Of a DNA stretch of 20,779 nt, positions 13 through 20,779 are shown piece by piece. Under the pieces are notes generated by a model that saw only the letters and a list, made by a program, of their open reading frames with translations, had not been told where the DNA came from and ran no database searches. The position numbers and the translations under genes are program-made. The DNA is taken from assembly GCA_017415945.1 (NCBI GenBank), contig JAFQDR010000053.1, positions 1 through 20,779 on the forward strand, in the 5' to 3' direction. This DNA comes from Oscillospiraceae bacterium. Its GTDB lineage: Bacteria; Bacillota_A; Clostridia; Oscillospirales; Oscillospiraceae. Each line of letters begins with the position of its first letter. The first letter of the stretch is position 1.

Positions 13-105
13 ATTGCACTGCTTACATATTTATTCTATTATATCACAAAACTGTGAATAATTCAAGGCGTTTCTTTCCTTTTACCTTGATATGCGCCAA
101 ACAAG

Positions 106-2358: not shown

Positions 2359-4106
<1,748 letters not shown>

Positions 4107-4460: not shown

Positions 4461-4629
4461 ATGTTTGCAGATATAAAATGTTTTTGTTTTCAAATTTTAA
4501 GGTTAGTTCAGAATCCTTATATCGAACACCTCAAATTGCTGATATAATCATTTTACGGTGCTGTATTTTCGGTCGCAGGAAACACCATATGACAAGAAAG
4601 GAAGACTTTTTTGCAGAGGAGTTAAAAAA

Positions 4630-4651
4630 GGATAGGTTATTACGCCTATCC
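4630..4651 (-). terminator. Intrinsic terminator behind the decayed DUF6809 copy
   Basis: On the minus strand GGATAGG (4645-4651) pairs perfectly with CCTATCC (4630-4636) around an 8-base loop and is followed by six T residues. It lies 14 bases past the remnant's stop and is a textbook rho-independent terminator. Confidence 0.75.
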
Positions 4652-4664
4652 TAATAATCATTAT

Positions 4665-5157: not shown

Positions 5158-5505
5158 TCAGATCAGCACACCCTCGCAATGATCTACCTCGTGCTGAATA
5201 ATCTGCGCTGTGAAGCCTGTGTAGCTTTTGATCCGCACCTGCATCTCGGTGGTCTGATACTTCACCTTGATGCTCTTGTACCGCTTGCACGGTCGCGGAC
5301 CGCCGAGGAGTGACAGACAGCCTTCCTTGGTGTCGTATGCGTTGTCCTTTTTGATGATCTCGGGATTGAGCATCACCTTATAAGTCGGCGTATTCCCGCT
5401 TTCATCGAGAAACGCGATGATGCGCTTCTTGACATCGATCATGTTCGCTGCCATGCCGACACAGCCGTCCTTGTGCGCAAGCCGTGCCGTCCGCGTGGTT
5501 ATACC
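5158..5505 (-). pseudogene. Peptide deformylase lacking its N-terminal part
   Basis: The frame carries the hallmarks of a short clostridial peptide deformylase, the metalloenzyme that removes the formyl group from nascent proteins. These are HKDGCVGMAANM (the motif-1 region), EGCLSLLGGPR with metal ligand Cys, and QIIQHEVDHCEGVLI with the HExxH ligands, ending normally at 5158. Counting from the ATG at 5454 the product would be 98 residues (Cys46, His88, Glu89, His92). Homology continues upstream of that ATG to about 5505, with no ATG, GTG or TTG available, and then stops. Roughly the first 35-40 residues of a normal enzyme of about 136 residues are therefore missing. The gene is most likely dead. 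A short product from 5454 would keep the metal site but lose the first helix and half of motif 1. Confidence 0.75.
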
Positions 5506-5547
5506 GATTTGAGAATTTGATGAATTGGTGAATTATAAACAAAATGA

Positions 5548-5619
5548 GTTCAGAAATCTCCTGTTATGTGCGCTAAACTCCTATTAATTTGTAGGAATTT
5601 GCAGTATAATTCATATAAT
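5548..5619 (+). promoter_or_regulatory. Regulated promoter of solute-binding protein 1 (shared operator A)
   Basis: GTTCAGAA (5548), TTATGT (5564) and CCTATTA (5580) occur with the same spacing as in the promoter of the second binding protein at 11910; 29 of 39 bases are identical without gaps. Two possible -10 boxes follow (TATAAT at 5605-5610 and 5614-5619), and neither has a good -35. That fits a promoter needing an activator, probably the AraC-family protein encoded at 13602-14477. Confidence 0.65.
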
Positions 5620-5703
5620 ACAAGCGATGATCCGTTATTTCAATCGGCTCATGATCGCTTTGTGCTCTCAAAGCGGGAGCTCACAGAATAGGAGGTTGGG
5701 TTT

Positions 5704-7203
5704 ATGAAAACAACAACAAAAAAAAGTCTTCAAAAAGGTGCGATTCTGCTGGCGATTCTCTTGCTTCTGGAGTCGCTGTCTGTTCTGACAGCCTGCTCGA
5801 ATGAAGAGGCATCGAAGACAGTCGATCAAACAACTGTAACTGATGCAGAGCAAAACGAGGCTGTAATCGAAGAGCTTACAGACGGACTTGAAGACATCAA
5901 TATGGAGGGCTATGAGTTTAACATTCTGGCAACAGAAATGGCATGGACTAGAGCAAAATACGATGCGGAGCAGGACGGCGAGCCGATAAACGACGCAATC
6001 AGTACACGGAATCGCTATTTAGAGGAGCGTTTTAACTGCGATATCGTTGTATTATCCGACACGGCCCATGCTTCGGCAATGAACAAGGCAACCAACGATG
6101 TGCAAAGTGATGACGGCGTATTTGATATGGTATCGCTTTATGATGTATACATTTCTGTCATGCTGCCTTATATTGCCGATTGGAATAATGTTTCGCAGCT
6201 GAAGCTCGATAAGCCCTGGTGGAATCCCGACGCAACCGTAGTATATAACTGGGGCGGAAAGCAGTGTACCATCAATGGATACACCAGCTTGACTGCGATT
6301 TCCTCTACCAATGCAATTGCTTTTAACAAGGATATGCTCGAAACACTCAATGTGGAAAGCAAAGAGCTGTATGATCGGGTCAGAAACGGCAGCTGGACAC
6401 TCGATGCCATGTATGCATACGGTAAACAGGCAATCACCGATTTGAACGGTGACAGTAAGATTGACCTCAAGGATGACCGCTTTGCCATCCAAGACGGCAA
6501 TTCCATTAAAAATCTGGTTAATGCGGCTGTTGCCTCAGCCGGCATTCGCTATGTTGGCTATGATGCCAACCACAATCCAGTTTATCAATTCGATAACGAA
6601 AAAAGCATTAATATGTACCAAAAGTTGATCGAAAAATCCTTTAACGAGGGTGTGCTGATTACCAATGCCGCGAATCCCGACCGCGGTACATCGGTGCCCA
6701 TTTTCCTTGAAAACCGTGCGCTTTTTGTTCATGCGAGCATGCTGGGTATGGAAACTGTTCGAGGTGTCGATCAGTTTGATATCGGTATACTTCCTTTCCC
6801 GAAATTTGATGAAACGGTTGATGATTACCGTTCCTTGTCTGTAGGAAGCGCAACCTGCTTCCTGCCTCGCACCGTGTCGCCCGATGATTACGACAGGATC
6901 GGTACGATGCTTGAGGCAATGGCATTCTATTCCTATTATGAAGTGCTTCCGGTATATAAGGAAATTGCGCTTAAGACAAAATCAACACGTGACAATGAAA
7001 GTTCCGATATGCTGGATATCATCTTCAATACTATCTGTTTCGACCTTGGACACACACTCGAGCATATTGTAACCAAGCCTTTGATTGCAGCAGCTTTTCT
7101 GAAAAAGGACAGTACACTGGTTGCTTCATCCATTGAAGCGAACAAGGAAGTCATTCGAGCGGAAATCGAAAAGCTGCTTGAAGCCGCAAAAGATATTTTT
7201 TAA
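5704..7203 (+). CDS. Lipoprotein extracellular solute-binding protein (carbohydrate ABC transporter family 1-like), paralogue 1
   Basis: This 499-residue lipoprotein begins with a basic N-terminus, a hydrophobic stretch (12-29) and a lipobox LTAC with lipidated Cys31, so it is anchored outside the membrane. The mature part has the layout of large family-1 carbohydrate-binding proteins: YEFNIL near 70, NDAISTRNRYLEERF (96-110), KPWWNPD (170-176), FNKDMLE (207-213), GSWTLD (229-234) and LPFPKFDE further on. An EF-hand-like loop DLNGDSKIDLKD (246-257) suggests bound calcium. RBS AGGAGG precedes the ATG. It is a clear paralogue of the protein at 12026-13504. No permease or ATPase genes adjoin it, so the rest of the transporter must be encoded elsewhere. 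The glycan bound is presumably the substrate of the neighbouring PL8 and GH2 enzymes. Confidence 0.88.
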   Translation: MKTTTKKSLQKGAILLAILLLLESLSVLTACSNEEASKTVDQTTVTDAEQNEAVIEELTDGLEDINMEGYEFNILATEMAWTRAKYDAEQDGEPINDAISTRNRYLEERFNCDIVVLSDTAHASAMNKATNDVQSDDGVFDMVSLYDVYISVMLPYIADWNNVSQLKLDKPWWNPDATVVYNWGGKQCTINGYTSLTAISSTNAIAFNKDMLETLNVESKELYDRVRNGSWTLDAMYAYGKQAITDLNGDSKIDLKDDRFAIQDGNSIKNLVNAAVASAGIRYVGYDANHNPVYQFDNEKSINMYQKLIEKSFNEGVLITNAANPDRGTSVPIFLENRALFVHASMLGMETVRGVDQFDIGILPFPKFDETVDDYRSLSVGSATCFLPRTVSPDDYDRIGTMLEAMAFYSYYEVLPVYKEIALKTKSTRDNESSDMLDIIFNTICFDLGHTLEHIVTKPLIAAAFLKKDSTLVASSIEANKEVIRAEIEKLLEAAKDIF

Positions 7204-7226
7204 TAATCATTTATAAAAATATGGAA

Positions 7227-7296
7227 GAAATCATGGCTGCAAATCTGACACAAATCTGCAGACATGATTTCATCATGCTGCGATGTTATTTTTTTT
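7227..7296 (+). terminator. Large hairpin with T8 tract between binding protein 1 and PL8 gene
   Basis: GAAATCATG (7227-7235) pairs perfectly with CATGATTTC (7263-7271). Inside, CTGCA (7237) pairs with TGCAG, and a T8 run lies at 7289-7296, 17 bases after the stem. It could be a partial terminator or attenuator that lowers expression of the enzymes relative to the binding protein, because no promoter is evident between it and the PL8 start. Confidence 0.5.
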
Positions 7297-7329
7297 CATG
7301 CACTACAGTAAAAAGAAAGGAAGACCTCT

Positions 7330-9189
7330 TTGCAGGTCGGTTTTGTTGAAATGAATTCTGTAAAAGCACGTTATCAAGCACTATTATGGGAAAAAATAGA
7401 GGACGGGAGGCCCATACCGGAGCTTTCCTGCGATGGGCAGTATTGGCACTATATGCAGTTTGACTGCACTTCTGAGGATCCCGCAGCATGGGATGGTAAG
7501 CTTTATATTGATACGCTCCAGCGCTACATCAATCTCTCTGGGAAGGAGATATTCCAAGATCAGGCGCTTCAAGGGAAAATACTATCTGCGCTGGATTATT
7601 GGCTGGATCACGATTTTCAAAATCCGAATTGGTGGTATAATCAAATCGGTGTGCCTACTGCGATATCCAATATCTGCCTCATGCTGGAACTGATTTTATC
7701 GGACAGTCAGAAAAATAAATGCGTTGAGATCATCTCACGAGGGGTGCTTCCCGGATGTCAGACCCATTTTCAATGGACGGGAACAAATCTGATCTGGGGT
7801 GTATGGACAACGATTCGCGCTGCGCTGATTACCGGAGACTCGGATATGCTGACGGAGGCACTCGGGTTGGCTTCGAGGGAGATGAAAATCGCGCCCGATT
7901 CGCTTGAAGGGATTAAACGTGACGGCGGCTTCTTTCAGCATGGTCCACAGCTTTATTCGTGCGGATACGGCAGATCTTTCACAACCGAAATCGCGACTAT
8001 GGCATATATCCTTTCGGGCTCTCCCTATCAATTCTCAGAGAAATCGCTGAAAAATTTTACAAGCCATGTGCTTGACGGTCAGCGGCATTTATCGCGGGGC
8101 GGATATTTCGACTATAATTGTATCGGACGTGAAATCAGCCGTCCCGGTGCCACCGATATTGCGTCAAAGGATCAATTTGGCTTTTATCAATCGCTGAAAC
8201 GAATGAAGAACACGGCGGAGATGCCGCGCAAAGACGAAATTGCCGCCTACATTGCCTCGATTGAAGATGTCACACAGGATGTGATGTGCGATGTGAAATA
8301 TTTCTCGATCGTGAAATATCTTTCCAATAAGCAACCGGGCTACTATATCGGTGTGAGAGGACATGATAAAAGTCTGCGCGGCGGGGAACAGCTGCTCGGC
8401 GAGAACATATTGGGCTACAATCTCTGCTATGGCTCGGTGATCTGCATTATGGAGGATGGAGACGAATATTCGAAGGTGTTCCCGGTTTGGGATTTCTCTA
8501 TGATTCCGGGAACAACAGCATATGAAGAAAGCGACGAAATGCTGATTAGACGAGGAGAATGGAAACATGATCCGGGCAGGAGAATTTCCTGTACCGGAGC
8601 TTCTGACGGTCATATCGGAATGATGCACATGGAATTGATTTCGAAAGGCATATCGGGAGAACTGGTGTTTGTGACTTATGAAAGCGGCATTGCGGTATTG
8701 GCAAAGCATCTTCATGCAGAGAATTGTGGGAAGCGAATCCGCACAACCCTGAATCAATGTGCTGCGAATATGCCTTTGTGCGGAAGCACCCCCCTTGAAG
8801 GCGAGGCAGTCGTGGAAAGCGCTGTTTCAAACGCGGGCTTTACATATCGGTGTCTTGACGGAGGAAAGCTTACCGCCCGCTGCATTACACAGCAGGGAAG
8901 CTGGAGGCGAAATAATCATTCGGAGAGTGACGAACCTATCTCAAAAGAGGTATTCACGGTATACATTGACCACGGTGAAGCGATTGAAAATGGCAGCTTT
9001 GCATATGCTGTTGAGCATAACGAAAGCATGACGTCAGAGAGTCAGATTGTCTGTGTTACGAATACAGAAGCACTGTCTGCGGTGGAATTCGCCGATGGAC
9101 GCGCCGCTGTATATTTCCATGAACCCGGCACATATACAACAAGCTGCGGCAAGCGTGTGTCCGGATCCGGTGCTGTTATTATAGGGTGA
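7330..9189 (+). CDS. Polysaccharide lyase family 8-like enzyme without signal peptide
   Basis: This 619-residue protein carries the PL8 (hyaluronate/chondroitin AC/xanthan lyase) pattern in order: NPNWWYNQIGVP (98-109), TGTN (150-153), DGGFFQHGPQLYSCGYG (198-214), RGGYFDYNCIGREISR (256-271), GEN (358-360) and VWDFSMIPGTT (386-396). Candidate catalytic residues by family comparison are Asn153, His204, Tyr213 and Arg267/Arg271. The family cleaves uronic-acid-containing chains by beta-elimination. It is shorter than typical members (about 700-1000) and lacks a signal peptide, so it probably works on imported oligosaccharides in the cytoplasm. The start is either TTG 7330 (GGAAG seven bases upstream) or ATG 7351; the TTG sits in a small hairpin, GACCT-6-AGGTC. 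The exact uronide substrate cannot be read from the sequence. Confidence 0.85.
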   Translation: MQVGFVEMNSVKARYQALLWEKIEDGRPIPELSCDGQYWHYMQFDCTSEDPAAWDGKLYIDTLQRYINLSGKEIFQDQALQGKILSALDYWLDHDFQNPNWWYNQIGVPTAISNICLMLELILSDSQKNKCVEIISRGVLPGCQTHFQWTGTNLIWGVWTTIRAALITGDSDMLTEALGLASREMKIAPDSLEGIKRDGGFFQHGPQLYSCGYGRSFTTEIATMAYILSGSPYQFSEKSLKNFTSHVLDGQRHLSRGGYFDYNCIGREISRPGATDIASKDQFGFYQSLKRMKNTAEMPRKDEIAAYIASIEDVTQDVMCDVKYFSIVKYLSNKQPGYYIGVRGHDKSLRGGEQLLGENILGYNLCYGSVICIMEDGDEYSKVFPVWDFSMIPGTTAYEESDEMLIRRGEWKHDPGRRISCTGASDGHIGMMHMELISKGISGELVFVTYESGIAVLAKHLHAENCGKRIRTTLNQCAANMPLCGSTPLEGEAVVESAVSNAGFTYRCLDGGKLTARCITQQGSWRRNNHSESDEPISKEVFTVYIDHGEAIENGSFAYAVEHNESMTSESQIVCVTNTEALSAVEFADGRAAVYFHEPGTYTTSCGKRVSGSGAVIIG

Positions 9190-9212
9190 CCATGACAGCA
9201 GCAAAAAAAGAC

Positions 9213-9241
9213 TTTACATTCGAGTCAAATCGTGGTACAAT
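9213..9241 (+). promoter_or_regulatory. Internal promoter for the GH2 gene
   Basis: TTTACA (9213-9218) and TACAAT (9236-9241) are 17 bases apart in the 93-base gap between the PL8 stop and the GH2 start. This is a good vegetative-type promoter, allowing GH2 expression independent of the upstream promoter. Confidence 0.6.
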
Positions 9242-9282
9242 GCGGTTAGGCCGCAAAGACATTATGAAAAAAGGAGTTTTCC

Positions 9283-11763
9283 ATGAATATCATCTGGACA
9301 GCACAGATTCAGTCACCCGATCACATCCACGATTACACAATCCCCGCGCGCGTTCCGGGCTGCATTCATGCCGATCTGCTTCGTGCGGGCTTGATTTGTG
9401 ATCCCTATTGGCGGGATAATAACGAACAGCTTCAATGGATTGAGGCGTGCGATGTAACCTATACAGGAACCTTTTCACTGGACGAAGTCCACCACGACAG
9501 CCATCTGATTTTTCGAGGGCTTGATGTATATGCATCAATTTACTGCAATGGAGTTCTGCTTGGATTGAGCGACAACATGCATATCACTTGGGATTTTGAT
9601 GTCTCAGATGTGTTGATCGTCGGTGAGAATCAGCTTACCGTTGCCTTTCGCTCTCCGATACGTGAAGTGGAAGGTGCACCGAGACGAAGCGCTGCTTTCA
9701 CCTGTGAACGACTCTATACGAGGCGTGTTCAATGCAGCTATGGATGGGATTGGCTCGGACGGTTTGTCACCATGGGAATCTGGAAGCCGGTTGAGCTGAT
9801 CGTTCGTCACCACGATTACATCGGTGACAGACAGGATGGGATTTACGTTTTCACAAAGAATATCAATCCATACAGCGCGCAGATCGGTGCGGCACTGCAC
9901 TTCGAAAATGTTACCGGAAACGCATGGGTGAAAATGGAGATTTACGATCCCCACGGAAAGAAGCTTTGGGAAAAAACACGTCGGATTTTGCTGCCAAATA
10001 TGGACGAGACGGTCGATATTTCAGACCCCATGCTTTGGTTTCCTGCGGGATACGGAGAGCAGCCTTTATACCGCTTGGCAATCACAACCTATACCGACAG
10101 CTCATTGAAGGAAATGACCGAGATGCGCGAGGTTGACTTCGGCATTCGCACAGTCGTTATTCTTGAGCCCGAAGATCACCCCGATTCTGCAGAATCTGTG
10201 ATGGCAAAGAAACTGAAAGAGACTGCACATTTGCAGGAGTGGGATAAAAATGAACGATCAAGCGCCTTCTGGCTGCTGGTCAACGGCGTTCGCATTTTCT
10301 GTCAGGGCGCAAACTGGGTGCCCAGTGAGCCATTCCCCTCCGAAGAAAATGAGGAAAAGATTACAAGGCTCATCGCACTTGCGAAGGGAGCGGGTGTCAA
10401 TATGCTGCGCATGTGGGGAGGCGGTATATTCGCACCGAAGCTGCTGCTTGATGCCTGTGACCGTGAAGGAATTCTTGTGACGCAGGACTTTTTGATGGCC
10501 TGTGGTGACTATCCCGAGGAGAATTCTGACTTTTTGGAACAGCTGCGAAAGGAAGCAAAAGAGGCAGCTCTGACCATGCGCAATCATCCCTCTCTTGTAT
10601 GGTGGTCGGGAGATAATGAAAATGCGGTTCGCGGAAATGAAAACCTCGAATCTTACAACGGACGGGATGCAGCGCTCCTTGCGATCGGTCCGGTGCTGAA
10701 GAATCTCGATCCGCAGAGAACATTTCTCCCATCCAGTCCGTATGGCGGCGTTCCGTATGCCTCGGGTGTGCGGGGGACAACACATAATACACAGTTTCTT
10801 GGGAATCTGTTTGCTTGGGTCAGAGAAGGGAATCTGAAGAATTACAGAGAATATCTTGACACTTATCTGAACCGCTTTACCGCAGAGCAGCCTGCTCTCG
10901 GTATGCCTTTTCTGTCCTGCCTGAAGAAATTCATGACCGATGAGGATATTTTCGGGGATGATAGCAGCATCAGCGAATACCATACAAAGAATAATCCGGG
11001 GCTTGGTGAGATTACGCTGTACGGATATGTGGAACGCTTAGCGCAGGGGATCTTCGGCGATTTTCATTCAGGGGAAGATCGGGTGAAAAAGATGCAGCAG
11101 CTCCATTGTGAGTGGATCAGACTTTCCATGGAACTCTTCCGTAGGCATGCTTGGTATTCATCGGGAATTCTTTATTGGATGTGGAATGATTGCTGGCCTG
11201 CCGCAAACGGTTGGTCAATGATCGATTATTACGGCAATCCGAAACCGGGATATTACGCATTTAAACGCTGCGCAAAACCGCTGATTGCTTCGATACAGCT
11301 TCATGATGAGATAAGTGATGCCCCCTGTACGAGAGTATATCTCTCTTATCATGGAAGCGCCGAGCAAATCGCAGTTGGTTCCTGTAGGCTGTATCGCTAT
11401 CACATTCTGTCTGGTGAAGAGGATTACGAATATGAGATCCCGATCGAAATACAGGCGGGCAGATCGGAAATTATATTCAACGATGAGGCGATACCGCTCA
11501 CATGCGAGACGGTGCTTGTTGCAGATATTCAGACCGATGTCGGCTCTGACCGTGCATTTTGTCTGCCGGCAGGCTGCTGTTATGCCGATATGGCCTTTGT
11601 CGATGCACAGCCTGAGATTGTCGAGGAGACCGAAGATTTCATCCGCTTGCAGGCAAAGGAAACGCTCCCCTTTGCGTTGATCGATACAGAAAACGTAATT
11701 CTGGAAGAAAACGGAGCCTTTCTGAAAAAAGGCGAAATTGTAGTATACCGAAAATTAAAATAA
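9283..11763 (+). CDS. Glycoside hydrolase family 2, beta-mannosidase-like
   Basis: This 826-residue enzyme matches the length and architecture of bacterial beta-mannosidases. It has an N-terminal jelly-roll (about 1-175, with VPGCIHADL at 24-32 and YGWDWLGRF at 153-161), an immunoglobulin-like domain (about 180-290, ending in EVDFGIRTV) and a TIM barrel (about 325-690). The barrel contains GANWVPSEPFP (342-352), MLRMWGGG (374-381) and WWSGDNE (440-446) with acid/base Glu446. RFTAEQPALGMP (531-542) places the probable nucleophile at Glu535. The family removes terminal beta-mannose, but related GH2 members cleave other beta-glycosides. No signal peptide is present, so it acts in the cytoplasm. 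RBS AAGGAG lies before ATG 9283. It follows the PL8 gene and is closed off by a terminator at 11769. Specificity for mannose is likely but unproven. Confidence 0.88.
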   Translation: MNIIWTAQIQSPDHIHDYTIPARVPGCIHADLLRAGLICDPYWRDNNEQLQWIEACDVTYTGTFSLDEVHHDSHLIFRGLDVYASIYCNGVLLGLSDNMHITWDFDVSDVLIVGENQLTVAFRSPIREVEGAPRRSAAFTCERLYTRRVQCSYGWDWLGRFVTMGIWKPVELIVRHHDYIGDRQDGIYVFTKNINPYSAQIGAALHFENVTGNAWVKMEIYDPHGKKLWEKTRRILLPNMDETVDISDPMLWFPAGYGEQPLYRLAITTYTDSSLKEMTEMREVDFGIRTVVILEPEDHPDSAESVMAKKLKETAHLQEWDKNERSSAFWLLVNGVRIFCQGANWVPSEPFPSEENEEKITRLIALAKGAGVNMLRMWGGGIFAPKLLLDACDREGILVTQDFLMACGDYPEENSDFLEQLRKEAKEAALTMRNHPSLVWWSGDNENAVRGNENLESYNGRDAALLAIGPVLKNLDPQRTFLPSSPYGGVPYASGVRGTTHNTQFLGNLFAWVREGNLKNYREYLDTYLNRFTAEQPALGMPFLSCLKKFMTDEDIFGDDSSISEYHTKNNPGLGEITLYGYVERLAQGIFGDFHSGEDRVKKMQQLHCEWIRLSMELFRRHAWYSSGILYWMWNDCWPAANGWSMIDYYGNPKPGYYAFKRCAKPLIASIQLHDEISDAPCTRVYLSYHGSAEQIAVGSCRLYRYHILSGEEDYEYEIPIEIQAGRSEIIFNDEAIPLTCETVLVADIQTDVGSDRAFCLPAGCCYADMAFVDAQPEIVEETEDFIRLQAKETLPFALIDTENVILEENGAFLKKGEIVVYRKLK

Positions 11764-11768
11764 CACGA

Positions 11769-11801
11769 AAGCCTCAAAATCTTTGGTTTTGGGGCTTTTT
11801 T
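11769..11801 (+). terminator. Intrinsic terminator after the GH2 gene
   Basis: AAGCCTCAAAA (11769-11779) pairs with TTTTGGGGCTT (11787-11797), with one G-U pair, and runs into a T6 tract. It starts six bases after the stop codon and is a strong rho-independent terminator. Confidence 0.9.
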
Positions 11802-11909
11802 GATCGTTTACAATGTGTTTATACACAAAATATGGGATTGATGCCCTCTAATATCAATATCCCAAAGGCCTGGAGTAGGCAAATGTGAACCGCCCTTTAT
11901 TCGATTTGT

Positions 11910-11974
11910 GTTCAGAATATTCATATTATGTTCGACAATATCCTATTATGTGGAATTATTATGCCTTATACTAT
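11910..11974 (+). promoter_or_regulatory. Regulated promoter of solute-binding protein 2 (shared operator B)
   Basis: GTTCAGAA (11910), TTATGT (11926), CCTATTA (11942) and GGAATT (11952) mirror operator A upstream of 5704. TATTATG is repeated at 11924-11930 and 11944-11950, 20 bases or about two helical turns apart, and again at 11957-11963. This is the spacing expected for a tandem-binding AraC-type activator. A -10-like TATACT/TACTAT sits at 11967-11974 without a recognisable -35. Confidence 0.65.
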
Positions 11975-12025
11975 AGTAGCGATATCATGGTATAAAAATC
12001 ATTCAACTTATTTCAGGAGGTCAAC

Positions 12026-13504
12026 ATGAAACGAATTTGCATGGCTTTTCTCAGCATATTTCTTGCGGCAGCACTATTCTCATCCTGTGCACCCGAAGCT
12101 TCGTCCGGAGAAGAGAATATGAACACAGGTACTACTCTGACCGAGAGTACACCACCCGAAGATATCCTTGTGGGGCTTGAGCGTGCCAATCTGCCCAAAA
12201 ACGATTTTGGCGGCGTGGATTTTGTCTTTTTCCACGAGGACAGCGAAGCAACGGCATCTACAGGAGATGCATGGCGTATGATTGACTCGGATCAGCAGAA
12301 CGGCGAGATTCTGAACGATGAGATTTATAAGCGAAACAAAAAAGTTGAAGAACTGTATGGCGTTGTGATCGATGTCGTTCAGAACAGCGGTGACTCAAAG
12401 CAGATCATGAAAAACAGCGTAAATGCAGATGATAACGCTTATCAGGCATTTTTTGCAAGTCTCACCAATATGCTTCCTGTTTCACAGGAGAATTATCTGG
12501 CAGACTGGCTGGATATGCCTCATTTGAATACGGCAGCTGATTGGTGGGATCAGTCGGTGGTGGATGCATTTACAATCAAAAACAAGCTTTATATGTGTAC
12601 CGGCGACATCTCACCGTTGGTCAACTGCCGTGTATATTCGATTGTGTTTAACAAGGATATGTGTGCCGAGCTGGGACTGGAGCTTCCCTATGCCAGCGTT
12701 TTTGACGGAAACTGGACGCTGGAAAAATTCAATTACTATACAGCCAATGTGAACAGCGATATCAATGGCGACAGTAAGATGGATTTTGATGACCGCTGGG
12801 GGTATCTTTCTCAGAACGGCAATTCACTGATGATGTATTTCTCGGCTGGCGGTACCGTTGTGCAGAAGAATAGCGATAGCCTTGTTCTTTCAATCAATTC
12901 CGAGCGTAATATCTCGCTGGCGACTGCAGCACTTTTGGTGTCGATTGATGAGACAAGAACGCTCATGGGTAATCCGCTGACCGCCAATGGCGGTTGGGCG
13001 GCAGTTTCCAACTGGTTTGCAGAGGGCGGATCGCTGATGCGTGCCTCTGTGTTTGAGCCTGTCCCGCGCGATTATCGCTCGATGGAAACCGACTTCGGTG
13101 TGCTTCCTTTTCCCAAGCTGGATGAAGCACAGGATAGATATTATACATTCCCTGAGGCAACCGGTTTTGTGATTTCGTTCCCTACGACCTGCGACAGGGA
13201 AATGTGCGGTCTGATCGTGGAAGCGATGGCAGCCGAGTCAACATATACCGTTAAAAAGGCCTTCTATGAAACCTGCTTGAATGAGAAATCGGTTCGTGAT
13301 GAGGAGTCACAGAGAATTCTTGATATTATCTTCAACAGCAAGCAGTTTGATATCGGATATATCCTTGATTTCGGTAAGATTGCATCTCGCATTATCAATC
13401 TCGAGAGCAAACGCAACACTGAAGTTGCAAGTGCATTTGCTTCGATCACCGCGCAGGCAGAGGAAGCGCTTGAAAAATTCCTCGAAAGCTACGAAAACAA
13501 CTGA
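12026..13504 (+). CDS. Lipoprotein extracellular solute-binding protein (carbohydrate ABC transporter family 1-like), paralogue 2
   Basis: This 492-residue lipoprotein has signal peptide 1-20 and lipobox FSSC with lipidated Cys21. The mature protein parallels the product of 5704-7203: NDEIYKRNKKVEELYG (97-112), ADWWDQ (171-176), FNKDMCAELG (208-217), GNWTLEKFN (228-236), an EF-hand-like DINGDSKMDFDD (245-256) and LPFPKLDEAQD. RBS AGGAGG lies seven bases before ATG 12026. It has its own promoter, which shares the operator of paralogue 1, and a bidirectional terminator follows. No permease is nearby. The two paralogues differ substantially in the ligand-facing segments, so they may bind different chain lengths or ends of the same glycan; this is inference. 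Confidence 0.88.
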   Translation: MKRICMAFLSIFLAAALFSSCAPEASSGEENMNTGTTLTESTPPEDILVGLERANLPKNDFGGVDFVFFHEDSEATASTGDAWRMIDSDQQNGEILNDEIYKRNKKVEELYGVVIDVVQNSGDSKQIMKNSVNADDNAYQAFFASLTNMLPVSQENYLADWLDMPHLNTAADWWDQSVVDAFTIKNKLYMCTGDISPLVNCRVYSIVFNKDMCAELGLELPYASVFDGNWTLEKFNYYTANVNSDINGDSKMDFDDRWGYLSQNGNSLMMYFSAGGTVVQKNSDSLVLSINSERNISLATAALLVSIDETRTLMGNPLTANGGWAAVSNWFAEGGSLMRASVFEPVPRDYRSMETDFGVLPFPKLDEAQDRYYTFPEATGFVISFPTTCDREMCGLIVEAMAAESTYTVKKAFYETCLNEKSVRDEESQRILDIIFNSKQFDIGYILDFGKIASRIINLESKRNTEVASAFASITAQAEEALEKFLESYENN

Positions 13505-13525
13505 TTGTATATCCTGGCTGCAAAA

Positions 13526-13564
13526 AAACGGCGTTATTTCAAATCATCGAATATAAAGCCGTTT
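13526..13564. terminator. Bidirectional terminator between converging binding protein 2 and araC-family gene
   Basis: AAACGGC (13526-13532) pairs with GCCGTTT (13558-13564). On the minus strand the stem runs into seven T residues, which serves the AraC-family gene. On the plus strand it is followed by ATTC, a weaker exit for the binding-protein transcript. The loop is long (25 bases). Confidence 0.6.
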
Positions 13565-13601
13565 ATTCATCAACATCTTCGGTCATGCCCTTGGATATAA
13601 A

Positions 13602-14477
13602 TCATTCAAAATGCAGAGGTTCGTTATTATCCGATTTTTTCTGTGACTGTTTATATGCCATGGGAGTACAGCCAAAGTGCTTTTTAAAGACCGATATAAA
13701 ATAGGAGCTTTCGCTAAAACCGCAGAGAAGGGCTGTTTCTGTGACCGAATGCGCTTTGAGAAGATAGGATGCCTGCAAAATACGGTATTTGGTAAGGTAT
13801 TCATGAATTCCCATCCCCACATCCTTTTTGAAGATACGAGACAAATAGGAAGCGCTTACGCCATATGAGTCGGCAAGCTGATCAATTTTAATTTCAGAAG
13901 CAAAGTTTTCGGTGATACAGCAGAGGGTATTCTGTGTGAGTTTGTTAAGAAAGAAGGGGGATACGCGATTGCTGCGGGTATAGACGGCGTTGATCAGTGC
14001 GAGGATTTCTATTGTGTATGCCAGTGCAAGTGCGTGATGGTGTTCTTCCAGCGCATGCTCGAGTTTTTCGACAAGCCGCTGTGCGGTTGTCACATCCTTA
14101 CTGCTCGGTCTGAATATAACATTTCGGTTATGACTGTTATCGATCAGTGCTTTAATCAGCTTGTTTCCGTCTGAGATGTGGTCGAGTGATTTGATTCCCA
14201 CATTCAGCTCGTAATAATCGAGATGGGTTTGATTCAGAATCAGTCCGCAATGCATTTGGTATGGCTGCAGGACACAAATATCTCCATAGGTCGGGCGATA
14301 GGAATGATCATCAACGATCACCGAAAAATTGCCCTCCAGAAAAAGATTGATTTTGATATAGCAATAGCAGAATACCATTTCTTTCGTCCAGGTTCCCGCT
14401 TCCGCGTCCTCCTTGATGTGGTGAAATCGTATCTGCTTATCCACATCTTTCGTATCGATAACATGAAAAACTGCCAT
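13602..14477 (-). CDS. AraC/XylS-family transcriptional regulator
   Basis: This 291-residue regulator has an N-terminal cupin-like sensor domain (about 1-95, including EGNFSVIVDDHSYRPTYGD at 48-66 and PYQMHCG at 72-78), a helical linker (about 125-175) and a C-terminal double helix-turn-helix. The first HTH covers about 196-220 (IDQLADSYGVSASYLSRIFK). The second covers about 244-270 (SVTETALLCGFSESSYFISV, then FKKHFG), the typical AraC signature. Such proteins usually activate sugar-catabolic promoters when the sensor domain binds a sugar. The gene is divergent from the glycyl radical enzyme across 117 bases and convergent with binding protein 2. Three promoters in the locus carry related two-turn direct repeats that would suit it. 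RBS AAGGAG lies eight bases before ATG 14477. Confidence 0.92.
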   Translation of the reverse strand: MAVFHVIDTKDVDKQIRFHHIKEDAEAGTWTKEMVFCYCYIKINLFLEGNFSVIVDDHSYRPTYGDICVLQPYQMHCGLILNQTHLDYYELNVGIKSLDHISDGNKLIKALIDNSHNRNVIFRPSSKDVTTAQRLVEKLEHALEEHHHALALAYTIEILALINAVYTRSNRVSPFFLNKLTQNTLCCITENFASEIKIDQLADSYGVSASYLSRIFKKDVGMGIHEYLTKYRILQASYLLKAHSVTETALLCGFSESSYFISVFKKHFGCTPMAYKQSQKKSDNNEPLHFE

Positions 14478-14509
14478 CTGCCGCTCCTTGTGTTGTTCAT
14501 TAAAATAAT

Positions 14510-14557
14510 ATTATATCGATAATATGACGAATAATATAACATTTATGCTATTACTAT
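14510..14557. promoter_or_regulatory. Divergent araC / glycyl-radical-enzyme control region (shared operator C, looser)
   Basis: TAATATG (14520-14526) and ATTTATG (14541-14547) are 21 bases apart, with ACGAATAATAT between. This resembles the TTATGTTCGACAATAT arrangement before binding protein 2. ATTTATGC then leads into TATTACTATA, like TTATGCCTTATACTATA at 11960. A minus-strand TATAAT at 14510-14515 could serve the AraC gene. No strong -35 is seen in either direction. Confidence 0.5.
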
Positions 14558-14594
14558 ACCACCATATCTGGCTTTTGTCAAGAAAGGATTTTAT

Positions 14595-16781
14595 ATGTCT
14601 TATCAAAGTATACCGATTACCGAAAGAACCGAAAAACTGAGAAGTATTTTTCTCTCTCTGCCTGTACCGATGGAAGAGGACCCGTATGTAGATAAAAAAT
14701 ATCGCAAATTCAATACAGCCGATCGTTGGATCACGCTGGGCTATCTGAGAGGCTGGAAGAAGCATTGCAATGCAGAAACCACACGACTTCGTACCTCATA
14801 TGCGGAAGCAGAAGAGCTGTATGAAGCAGAGCCCTTGATCGCAGAAGAGGAGCTTTTGGTTGGGCGTCTCTATCTGCCCGAATATACGGAAGAAGAACAG
14901 AAAGAATACGATATGCTCTGCGATATGTTTGAGATGTCCTCCCATACGCTGACACAAATCACACCGAAACGAGATCATTTATCGCTAGATTTTGAAAAGC
15001 TGCTGAAGCTGGGCATTTCGGGGATCCGAGCAGAAATTCACGAAGCGATGGGAAAGCTTGATCTCAACTGCTGTCATGATTATCCTGCATACGAGGTGAT
15101 CAAACAGCATGAATTTTATCGCTGTTGTTTGATTGAGCTGGATGCGCTCTCCGATTTGGCAAGACGTTATGCGAAAAAGGCAGCCGAGATGGCTGAATCT
15201 GCTGCAGAAAACAGAAAGAATGAATTGATTCGGATCGCCGAAACACTTTTGAGGGTGCCCGAATATCCTGCAGGCAGCTTTTATGAAGCAATGCAAAGTG
15301 TTCAGTTTTTCCTCGGTACGCTCTTCGGTTTGTATCCCTTGAATCGCCCTGACCGTTATTTGTATCCCTATTATTTGCAGGATATCCAAATGGGCAGACT
15401 GACCAAAGAAGAAGCACAGGAACTGGTCGATCAATACTGTCTTCACATTTCGACCCGCGTCTTTACTCGTGCGGCATGCGGATTTATGGTCGGCGGGCTT
15501 GATGCCAATGGAGTGCTTGTAGAAAATGATTTGACCTATATGTTTATAACCGCTCTTGATCATCTGCAGCTTCCCGATCCTAATGGTGCTGTGGCGGTAT
15601 GTGAGCAGACGAGCGATGAATTGCTTCTGTACTGCGCAGAAATCCTCTCTCACGGTACAACACACCCCGCTTTCTTTAATGATGCAGCCATCGTAGCCTC
15701 TTTGGAGCAGAATTACGGCTGTCCCCATGAAGATGCGGTTAATTACATTCATACTACCTGTGCCGAGATTACGGTTGTCGGAAAAACAAGAGCGCATACC
15801 ACCGCTTTTATGGCTGATCTGCCCCAGCTTCTTGCAAAGACAGTCAGGGAACTTACCAATGAATCGGATTTCGATGAATTGCTTTGTCATTTTTATGAAA
15901 ACATTGTTTCGGACATGCGCGGTTACATTCTGTACTATGCGACGCGTATGCTCGAGGCCAGCCGCAACGGAAATGAGCCGATGCGCGTCTGCACACTGAT
16001 CGATGACTGTATCGGCAGAGGAAGAAGCATCTTTGAGGGCGGGGAAAAATACATGTTTATTCAGCCGATTATGATTGGTTTTTCCAATGCAGTGGACTCA
16101 CTTGCGGCGATCCGTTCGATCGTTTATGAAGATCGTCAGATGACGCTCAGTGCCTTCAACGAAATTGTCGAGCAGAATTTTGAGGGGCACGAAGAGCTGC
16201 GGCAATATATCATTCGAAACCTTCCTCATTACGGGAATGATGATGCTGCGGTTGATGATTTGGCAGGCAGCTTTGGCAGGCAGCTCCAGGCTCTTTTCAA
16301 AGAAAATAACCTCCTTTTCGGAAATCATATGATGCCGGGGACATTTTCTTATGTGGATCATGCTGCCCGCGGTGCACTGATGGGAGCGACCTTTGACGGA
16401 CGGCTCAGCGGCTATTCTTATTCGGACGGATGCAGTCCTGTTCAGGGGCGTGATGTGAACGGCCCCACCGCAATGATTAATTCACTGACCTCGTGGGAAC
16501 AGTCGTCGCTGATTGGCGGTATGGTTGTCAATGTCAAGTTCAGCAAAGAACATCTGCGCGGTGATAAACAGTATACACTTGTGGCGTTGCTGCGTACCTT
16601 CATCAAGCAGGGCGGTATTGAGCTGCAGGTAAATGCGGTGGACCGTGCTACATTAGAGGCAGCGCGTCAATCCCCTGAAAAATACAGCAATCTTCAGGTG
16701 CGTATTGGCGGATTCAGCGATTATTTTGTCAGATTGCAGCCGGAGCTTCAGCAGGAAATCATTGACAGAACCGAATATTAA
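14595..16781 (+). CDS. Glycyl radical enzyme of the pyruvate formate-lyase superfamily, unassigned subgroup
   Basis: This 728-residue protein has the full glycyl radical enzyme fold. Key points are HPAFFND (357-363), the thiyl loop IHTTCAE with Cys389 and Glu391 (385-391), YGNDD (546-550), FDGRLSGYSYSDG (600-612), SPVQGRD (614-620) and the C-terminal glycyl loop VRIGGFSDYF (702-711), where Gly706 is the expected radical site. Characterised dehydratases and lyases of this class usually have GCVE around the cysteine and RVxGY around the glycine. Here they are TCAE and RIGGF, so none of the well-known activities can be assigned. The retained Cys-x-Glu pair is typical of eliminating and lyase members rather than formate-lyases. 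It needs a radical-SAM activase, none of which is in the window. RBS AAAGGA precedes ATG 14595. It shares a control region with the AraC gene and lies 30 bases before an isomerase-like gene. Substrate is unknown; a deoxy or uronic sugar from the glycan is plausible. Confidence 0.9.
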   Translation: MSYQSIPITERTEKLRSIFLSLPVPMEEDPYVDKKYRKFNTADRWITLGYLRGWKKHCNAETTRLRTSYAEAEELYEAEPLIAEEELLVGRLYLPEYTEEEQKEYDMLCDMFEMSSHTLTQITPKRDHLSLDFEKLLKLGISGIRAEIHEAMGKLDLNCCHDYPAYEVIKQHEFYRCCLIELDALSDLARRYAKKAAEMAESAAENRKNELIRIAETLLRVPEYPAGSFYEAMQSVQFFLGTLFGLYPLNRPDRYLYPYYLQDIQMGRLTKEEAQELVDQYCLHISTRVFTRAACGFMVGGLDANGVLVENDLTYMFITALDHLQLPDPNGAVAVCEQTSDELLLYCAEILSHGTTHPAFFNDAAIVASLEQNYGCPHEDAVNYIHTTCAEITVVGKTRAHTTAFMADLPQLLAKTVRELTNESDFDELLCHFYENIVSDMRGYILYYATRMLEASRNGNEPMRVCTLIDDCIGRGRSIFEGGEKYMFIQPIMIGFSNAVDSLAAIRSIVYEDRQMTLSAFNEIVEQNFEGHEELRQYIIRNLPHYGNDDAAVDDLAGSFGRQLQALFKENNLLFGNHMMPGTFSYVDHAARGALMGATFDGRLSGYSYSDGCSPVQGRDVNGPTAMINSLTSWEQSSLIGGMVVNVKFSKEHLRGDKQYTLVALLRTFIKQGGIELQVNAVDRATLEAARQSPEKYSNLQVRIGGFSDYFVRLQPELQQEIIDRTEY

Positions 16782-16811: not shown

Positions 16812-17561
16812 ATGCTGTCGGCAGGAATGGTTTCGGTGACCTTTCGCACATTTACACCACAGAAGATTCTGGTTGTGACAGCTGCTGCGGGATTGCAGGA
16901 TATTGAGTGGGGGAGTGATCTTCATGTTCCTGCTGGCAGCATTGAGAATGCGCAGTCAGTGAGGGAACTCACTGAACAGGCAGGGCTGCGACCGATCTCA
17001 TATGGTTCCTATTTTTTCGCAGGCTATAACGATGAGACGGTCTTCATTGAGATTTTGCAAACCGCAAAGGCGCTGGGGGCCCGCAATATCCGTATTTGGG
17101 CAGGAAAAAAGGGAAGTCGTGAAGAAGATGACCGCCAGAAGGTTGTACGATCGATTCGGCAGTGTGCAGCACTTTGTGAGAAAGAGGGGATTGTTCTCTC
17201 CATCGAATATCATATAAACACACTAACCGATCAGCTTCATTCAGCGCTTCGGCTGATAGACGAGGTTGCTCATGAGAATGTACGGTTATATTGGCAAATC
17301 AGCTCAGGTATCGATGATCCGGTTGTCAATATCCAGATACTTCGTGGTGTTTTGCCCTATTTGTCCAATGTTCATGTGAATGCGGCCAGCAGCAATGCGC
17401 TTATCCCCCTTGTGGAAGGAGAAGTCATGTGGCGCCGTGTCATTGATCTTTTGCGGCAGGATGGACACGATCGCAGTATGCTGATTGAGTTTACTCAAAA
17501 CGGATCGATTGAGCAATTTATGGATGATGCGAATACACTTTGCAGTTGGCTTTATTCGTGA
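16812..17561 (+). CDS. Sugar phosphate isomerase/epimerase-like TIM-barrel protein (xylose isomerase-like/AP endonuclease 2 superfamily)
   Basis: This 249-residue single-domain TIM barrel has the metal-site layout of the superfamily: DIEWGSD (30-36) with Glu32, SIEYH (130-134) with Glu132 and His134, YWQ (160-162) with Gln162, NVHVN (186-190) with His188, and LIEF (224-227) with Glu226. Relatives epimerise or isomerise keto-sugars, inositols and related compounds. It follows the glycyl radical enzyme by 30 bases with its own AGGAGG, so the two are co-transcribed and probably act in consecutive steps. The sequence is short compared with many 270-300 residue members but looks complete from start to stop. 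The exact substrate is not readable. Confidence 0.82.
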   Translation: MLSAGMVSVTFRTFTPQKILVVTAAAGLQDIEWGSDLHVPAGSIENAQSVRELTEQAGLRPISYGSYFFAGYNDETVFIEILQTAKALGARNIRIWAGKKGSREEDDRQKVVRSIRQCAALCEKEGIVLSIEYHINTLTDQLHSALRLIDEVAHENVRLYWQISSGIDDPVVNIQILRGVLPYLSNVHVNAASSNALIPLVEGEVMWRRVIDLLRQDGHDRSMLIEFTQNGSIEQFMDDANTLCSWLYS

Positions 17562-19940: not shown

Positions 19941-20100
19941 AAGAGAGCAATGGACTGACGACGTTTTCTTTGAGCTTCGTGTTCGTTAGGCAAAGCGTCA
20001 TCCGTTCTCTTGTTATAAAGATTCGATTAAGCAGGTTGTTCCGTTTTTGAATGGGTGGGCGAGCCCACCCATTCAAAAAATGCGTTCGCGTCACGAGCCA
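19941..20100 (+). ncRNA. Candidate IS110 bridge RNA in the transposase leader
   Basis: IS110-group elements are known to express a structured bridge RNA from the non-coding leader. Here TATAAT (19935-19940) stands just before a nested stem: AAGAGA (19941) with TCTCTT (20006), GGA with TCC, GACG (19957) with CGTC (19996), and CTTTG (19968) with CAAAG (19991). An 18-base loop remains between the last pair, which could be a target-binding loop. A second, very stable stem lies at 20044-20079. Limits are approximate; the -35 would come from the joined right end in the circular form. Confidence 0.5.
20044..20079. repeat. 16-bp perfect inverted repeat inside the IS110 leader
   Basis: Bases 20044-20059 (TTTTTGAATGGGTGGG) are exactly complementary to 20064-20079 around a CGAG tetraloop. 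It lies between the candidate bridge-RNA stem and the transposase start. It may close the RNA as its 3' stem-loop, or block read-through transcription into the transposase from outside. Confidence 0.8.
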
Positions 20101-20159
20101 AAATGAGTCGTAATAAGCTGAAACGGTACATTGCAGAAACAACAAAAAGGAGGATTTTT

Positions 20160-20779
20160 ATGATCTGCGTTGGTATTGACATCGCAAAAGGAAAAAGCAC
20201 CGTATGCTTTTTGAAACCGGGCGGAGAGGTTCTGAGGATACCTTACGACATCGAACACATCGCCGAAGAAATTACAAAGCTTATACGGGATATTCGCTCG
20301 TATGACGAGGAGGTTAGCGTGGTACTAGAAGCCACGGGACACTACCATTTACCCGTGGTAGCACAGCTGCTTGAAGCAAATATTTTTGTTTGCGTGGTAA
20401 ACGCTCTACGCATGAAAAAGTTTTGTTCTCAGGATATTCGCAAAGCAAAGACAGACAAGATTGACTCTATGAAGATCGCCGCCTTCGGTCTTACTTATTG
20501 GCAGGATCTCAAGGCTGCCAAACCTACAGACGAGGTATACCGCGAACTGCGGTTGCTTTCAAGGCAGTATTTCCAGCTTACTTCTATGCTCACCAAAGCG
20601 AAAATTACCATGGGTAACGTTCTCGACAACGTTATGCCGGGTATTACAAAACTCTTATATGACCGCGCTCCAAACCACAAATTAACGGATTTTGTACTCA
20701 GATATTTACATTTTGACAAGATTTCCGCTATGGGAGAGAAAAGATTTACCACCGACTACTGCAAATGGGCAAAAAAACA
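20160..20779 (+). CDS. IS110-family DEDD transposase (N-terminal 206 residues, truncated by window end)
   Basis: ATG 20160 with AAGGAGG seven bases upstream opens a frame that reaches the window edge without a stop. MICVGIDIAKGKSTVC shows the RuvC-like start with Asp7, VVLEATGHYH gives Glu57, and KTDKIDSMKIA gives Asp99 and Asp102, the DEDD tetrad of IS110-family recombinases. A helical region with LRLLSRQYFQLTSMLTKAK follows, the expected coiled part before the C-terminal Tnp_20 domain with its catalytic serine, which lies outside the window. The enzyme moves the element by bridge-RNA-guided recombination. The long leader places it in the IS110 rather than the IS1111 group. No interruption is visible, so the element may be active. 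Confidence 0.9.
   Translation, partial: MICVGIDIAKGKSTVCFLKPGGEVLRIPYDIEHIAEEITKLIRDIRSYDEEVSVVLEATGHYHLPVVAQLLEANIFVCVVNALRMKKFCSQDIRKAKTDKIDSMKIAAFGLTYWQDLKAAKPTDEVYRELRLLSRQYFQLTSMLTKAKITMGNVLDNVMPGITKLLYDRAPNHKLTDFVLRYLHFDKISAMGEKRFTTDYCKWAKK

Follow-up and report, generated by a model that had tools for sequence, protein, structure and literature searches.

In a 20,779-nt contig of an Oscillospiraceae bacterium (the window), the gene for an AraC-family regulator lies between genes for glycan uptake and a gene for a glycyl radical enzyme (GRE), and it is probable that this regulator switches on three promoters, namely those of an operon for a solute-binding protein, a polysaccharide lyase and a glycoside hydrolase (SBP1-PL8-GH2), of a second solute-binding protein (SBP2) and of the GRE, via a shared tandem-repeat operator that is weaker at the GRE gene. 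The evidence consists of the conservation of the motif across genomes, the structure of the repeat and the geometry of the promoters, from which we infer the binding, the activation, the ligand and the promoter toggle proposed below. The features concerned are the following.

5548-5568 and 5568-5588, forward strand: SBP1 operator, two direct-repeat boxes with a period of 20 bp
5605-5610, forward strand: -10 hexamer of SBP1, TATAAT, at +57 from GTTC
5704-7203, forward strand: SBP1, a lipoprotein-like extracellular solute-binding protein according to the domains and names of its homologues
7330-9189, forward strand: PL8-type polysaccharide lyase (PF02278/PF08124; chondroitinase AC is the best solved match)
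9283-11763, forward strand: GH2 enzyme, beta-mannosidase-like (PF22666; beta-mannosidases are the best solved matches)
11910-11930 and 11930-11950, forward strand: SBP2 operator, two direct-repeat boxes with a period of 20 bp
11967-11972, forward strand: -10 hexamer of SBP2, TATACT, at +57 from GTTC
12026-13504, forward strand: SBP2, a solute-binding lipoprotein with 29% identity to SBP1
13602-14477, reverse strand: AraC-family regulator (matches PF12833 and PF00165; a GRE gene also stands divergent from each of its six orthologues)
14495-14535, forward strand: predicted weak AraC site in the araC/GRE gap, at the position equivalent to the sites of the relatives
14552-14557, forward strand: predicted -10 of the GRE gene, TACTAT, at +57 from GTTC, placed by analogy
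14553-14581, reverse strand: araC promoter TTGACA-N17-TATAGT, its -10 overlapping the predicted GRE -10
14595-16781, forward strand: GRE of an uncharacterised clade (PF02901, PF01228)

The starting point was a sequence-only reading, in which the words GTTCAGAA, TTATGT and CCTATTA were placed at 5548/5564/5580 and 11910/11926/11942 and 29 of 39 bases were counted as identical between the two elements. The words do lie at these positions and the count is correct; it is the best ungapped 39-base match between both intergenic regions, and in 2000 dinucleotide shuffles of the two regions a value of 29 was never reached (the largest was 28). A pattern derived from both sites finds these two in the window, as it must, and has no match in any of 100 shuffles. 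The step of 16 bases was rejected as a period, the identity at offset 16 being only 1 and 2 of 21. That reading placed half-sites about two helical turns apart, but it overlooked that both SBP sites are tandem direct repeats of period 20 and that their -10 hexamers stand at a common offset: the boxes are identical at 13 of 21 positions in the SBP1 operator (7 of 5000 single-base shuffles were as good, taking the best of offsets 19-21) and at 14 of 21 in the SBP2 operator (1 of 5000), and the identity summed over SBP1 and SBP2 is highest at period 20 (27/42; next 17). Box 2 of each SBP operator ends 16 bp upstream of the -10 hexamer and covers the -35 position, where TATTAA and TATTAT, 17 bp before the respective -10s, are poor -35 boxes, just as had been remarked from the letters. 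An operator over the -35 position together with the lack of a good -35 is the class II-type geometry.

The evidence that ties these elements to the regulator comes from other genomes. A profile of AraC (the window protein and 23 homologues) was run against GTDB genomes, and the comparison went on with the best 80 of 491 relatives. Among these, six relatives in metagenome-assembled genomes (MAGs) of Clostridia have 39-43% identity (E 3e-71 to 2e-62), and the next one after them has 30% (E 1e-25). A GRE gene whose product is 55-62% identical stands divergent from araC in all six close relatives. (At L004 7687-9865 the GRE frame is in two pieces, owing either to an assembly error or to a real break.) The AraC/GRE gaps of the six contain GTTC near the araC start and a -10-like word at +56/57, the offset +57 being common to SBP1, SBP2, L002 and L005, and a CTAT word occurs at +32/33 in five of them. 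A matrix was made from these six gaps only, so that it holds no letters of the SBP sites, and the 74 other loci (L007-L080) served as the control. This relatives-only matrix scores 33.8 at 5548 (SBP1) and 15.9 at 11910 (SBP2), which are ranks 1 and 2 in the window, and none of 2,157,702 control positions reaches either score. When the -10 was left out of the matrix (operator-only), the SBP1 and SBP2 sites were still the top two and none of 2,160,424 control positions was as good. Moreover, of 500 column-shuffled full matrices not one had both SBP sites in the top two (SBP1 was there with none of them, SBP2 with one), and in a leave-one-out series over eight sites every held-out site scored above all of the approximately 2.16 million control positions. 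Since a matrix from the gaps of orthologous AraC/GRE pairs finds them, both SBP sites are most likely bound by the local AraC. In one of the control loci (L007 1303-3589, Candidatus Flemingibacterium), a more distant AraC (30%) and an SBP homologue are divergent neighbours, and nothing in this locus scores as high as the SBP1 or SBP2 site.

Several points weigh against a single regulon of three promoters. The block limits of the matrix and the -10 offsets were set by eye when the SBP sites were already known, the gap of L002 has no CTAT word, and other promoter-like words (9-10/12) overlap or flank the SBP operators. The direct repeat is clear only at SBP1 and SBP2, and not at the GRE gap of the window nor in five of the six relatives. 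Across the six, the weak maximum falls at periods between 19 and 22 bp, and L006 alone (49/5000 shuffles) approaches significance. The third site is weaker than the other two. A looser site in the AraC/GRE gap had been proposed at 14520; the candidate site there is weak and starts 25 bp to the left, at 14495, which is the position equivalent to that in the relatives, and the 14520 register was rejected. With the relatives-only matrix it is only rank 7, outscored by 4486 and 18031 among others, and is matched by 237 of 2,157,702 control positions. With the eight-site matrix it is rank 8 (36 of 2,156,204 control positions and 19 of 2000 forward gap shuffles as good), and operator-only it is rank 4, below position 23 (matched by 22 of 2,160,424 control positions and by 25 of 2000 gap shuffles). 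The eight-site model gives only E 0.65 at 14494; for this stretch read on the other strand it gives E 0.039. Such a weak site in the window's own gap is odd if the GRE gene is the ancestral target.

Furthermore, the eight-site model finds one strong site in each of the relatives' genomes, the AraC/GRE gap (E 2.1e-9 to 3.7e-15), the six gap sites being among those from which it was built. No second strong site (next E 0.02) and no site before an SBP gene in the same direction were found in these six genomes, with up to 150 candidates scored per genome and with MAGs that may be incomplete, and both absences count on the same side. The 54 weaker secondary matches beyond the six have E 0.02 or worse. 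SBP1 homologues at E<=1e-15 occur in three of the six genomes, and an opposite-strand match at G005:C67:32687-32713 lies just before the SBP1 homologue at C67:32845; at E 0.93 this was judged to be chance. The expectation that the motif would recur at orthologous genes is borne out at six of six AraC/GRE gaps, and among the candidates scored no such site was found at the relatives' SBP genes. Because no other strong site was found in the relatives, it seems that the SBP sites joined the regulon in this lineage only; the transport branch rests on this window together with the cross-genome match. The idea of one signal for SBP1, SBP2 and GRE is supported by the gap-derived matrix, which finds the SBP sites, and is weakened by the poor GRE site; a common signal is what we infer.

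Four other explanations were weighed. It is rather unlikely, though worth keeping in mind, that the regulon here comprises SBP1-PL8-GH2 and SBP2 only, the GRE operator having decayed and the GRE being expressed otherwise. The GRE site is weak and has no CTATTA part, and its proximal box is poor, as this explanation would have it; however, the distal box is kept (15/21 to box 1 of SBP2, 22 of 2000 shuffles as good), the -10 stands at +57 and, operator-only, the gap beats all but the 25 of 2000 shuffles mentioned. We consider it improbable that a different regulator, encoded elsewhere in the genome, binds the shared sites while the neighbouring AraC controls the GRE gene only: of the three sites in the window the one at the GRE gene is indeed the weakest, but the matrix that finds the SBP sites was derived from gaps that have an orthologous AraC gene in common. 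Slightly more doubtful still is that the SBP promoters are alike merely because duplicated SBP genes carried their promoter along. SBP1 and SBP2 are indeed homologous, and gene duplication may be the origin of the second SBP site; however, the identity of the operators (29/39) is far above the 29% of the proteins, so something maintains it, and since the same element matches the AraC/GRE gaps of six genomes, promoter duplication is hardly the full explanation. Finally, a general AT-rich promoter look (a -10 with A/T tracts) can hardly account for the similarity, for although the SBP matches have a G+C of only 33% and 25%, no control locus has an equal score even with the operator-only matrix, the column-shuffled matrices fail, and of 2000 shuffles within each region none (SBP1) and one (SBP2) attained the operator-only score.

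On the araC strand, all seven gaps contain a TTGAC(A/T)-N16/17-TATAAT-like promoter with 10-12 of 12 matches, and its -10 overlaps the analogy-placed GRE -10 in seven of seven (GTTC+56..62 versus +58..66). The overlap leaves room for only one polymerase, which suggests that the divergent araC/GRE pair is a toggle with negative autoregulation. Considering these features together, we propose that AraC binds a tandem operator whose two boxes, each about 21 bp long, repeat with a period of 20 bp. Box 2 lies over the -35 position both at the promoter of SBP1-PL8-GH2 and at that of SBP2, and a weaker copy of the operator would be in the araC/GRE gap. In the presence of an imported glycan product, AraC would activate all three promoters, probably by direct contact with RNA polymerase at the -10, because there is no -35 box at the right spacing. 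The regulator itself would be made from its near-consensus promoter; once activated, it would recruit polymerase to the GRE promoter, and a polymerase engaged there would exclude transcription of araC and thereby give negative feedback. The GRE gene is apparently the sole target of the regulator in the relatives, and the transport operons would have been gained in the present lineage.

This type of switch is already well known, and it is the set of genes under its control that is unfamiliar and unusual. In E. coli AraC/araBAD and RhaS/rhaBAD, the activator site is at -35, the regulator gene is beside its targets and autoregulation is likely. The predicted system of the window resembles them in all three respects, and differs from them in that the -10 boxes of araC and its target overlap. 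For the AraC-type L-rhamnose regulators of Bacillales, Bacteroides and Enterococcus, one report gives a predicted direct-repeat operator with a 21-bp period, and an inverted repeat for the E. coli RhaR operator (PMC3870299). The rhamnose regulators are like the window in having an AraC-type protein, sugar-use targets and a direct-repeat operator, and differ in regulator, motif and gene content, the window having a period of 20 and a GRE among the targets (PMC3870299). The system of the window belongs with the known AraC regulons that have tandem-repeat operators. No publication on this regulon was found in the literature searched, which lacked most subscription journals.

The GRE has the glycine radical domain PF01228, and in an alignment with glycerol dehydratase 1r8w its C and E coincide with C433/E435, so that the enzyme family and the CxE and glycyl radical motifs are common to it and the glycerol/diol dehydratases (1r8w, 5i2a). 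Unlike 1r8w, it has no equivalents of H281, S282 and D447: the aligned positions are Y, P and T (the alignment is gapped near 281-282 and clear at 447). The protein is not filed as a diol dehydratase because these three are not kept. It is also below the curated cut-off of all 12 NCBIfam families matched (best TIGR01774, 362.9 versus 678.2). Its clade has 256 clustered proteins at E<=1e-100 among 7992 candidates scored, and 6 of the 120 listed are named (3 'hypothetical protein', 2 'formate C-acetyltransferase', 1 'pyruvate-formate lyase'). A GRE activase gene is directly downstream of the GRE gene in three of the six relatives, as follows, whereas a Pfam scan of 16 ORFs of the window showed none.

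L002 6777-7676: GRE activase, directly after GRE
G003:C101 341-1189: GRE activase, directly after GRE
G006:C38 5182-6030: GRE activase, directly after GRE

The 28 ORFs of the relatives scanned with Pfam include GH28, sulfatase, fucose isomerase, GH38, GH39 and GH4 genes; the GRE may handle something common to several glycans. In the window, the GRE gene is probably cotranscribed with the gene that follows it after a 30-bp gap.

16812-17561, forward strand: xylose-isomerase-like TIM barrel (PF01261)

The orthologues are patchily distributed, in at least four families as judged from group sizes. At E<=1e-25, AraC was found in 6 of 394 genomes in the order of G001, two of them clear (G001, G005) and four weak, and in 1/74, 1/4, 1/295 and 1/21 genomes of four families, each genome being already known. 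At E<=1e-150, GRE was found in 2/394 and 1/391 genomes, again known ones, and in the order-wide samples the GRE-bearing genomes are the two with a clear AraC. These wider searches scored the best few candidates per genome (2 for GRE; up to 6 or 8 for AraC), and since the scan with the AraC profile retained only the best 80 of 491 relatives, further orthologues may exist. Viral contigs gave 143 pattern matches to AraC relatives, none of which was confirmed, and no plasmid record is similar to 5400-14700 at high identity.

As for the other products, the double helix-turn-helix domain is present at the C-terminus of AraC (PF12833, PF00165 above cut-off), and the cupin PF02311 has no match in it and matches 3 of 26 homologues (P0020, P0025, P0026). 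In its second recognition helix, a position that is His in all six relatives is Tyr, and P0001, which is 95% identical, shares the Tyr; this change is possibly linked to the altered GRE site. SBP1 itself has no Pfam match, and some of its homologues have PF01547 or PF13416 or the name "extracellular solute-binding protein". By eye, both SBP1 and SBP2 start with lipoprotein-like leaders and a signal peptide is not obvious in the PL8 lyase. Smon0123-type glycosaminoglycan importers likewise tie a solute-binding protein to the breakdown of uronate polysaccharides (PMC5717064, PMC5430744); as a difference, the Pfam scan of the 16 window ORFs found no permease.

Around these genes, a weak operator-like forward match stands at 4486 (6.4 bits; 21 control positions as good), in a stretch (4486-4652) that also has the GTTCAGAA word at 4505, TATAAT at 4543 and, on the reverse strand, a terminator-like hairpin, with no clear gene behind it. 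Genes for a PfkB-type sugar kinase with a fused N-terminal HTH_3 (2892-4106, reverse strand), a lyxose-isomerase-like protein and a class II aldolase stand in this order and may form a sugar kinase operon that regulates itself. The 5' part of the peptide deformylase gene adjoining the SBP1 promoter (5158-5454, reverse strand) may be missing, because the profile match begins only at position 46. An IS110-type transposase gene (20055-20777, forward strand; PF01548) runs off the right end of the window.

Taken from a motif spotted by eye to a cross-genome operator, the element now predicts which genes share a signal, and it offers a compact example of regulon growth and of divergent promoters with overlapping -10 boxes. 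For the large unassigned clade of the GRE, it gives a hint of the substrate, namely the products of a PL8 lyase and a beta-mannosidase. Possibly, and we put this forward only tentatively, a switch with the uncharacterised GRE as its one target in several Clostridia families has taken over two operons for glycan uptake in this lineage, the copies of the operator there now being better than that at the original target, and the GRE acts on a product of a glycan that contains uronate and mannose. If true, this would be a chemistry not yet assigned to the GRE family.

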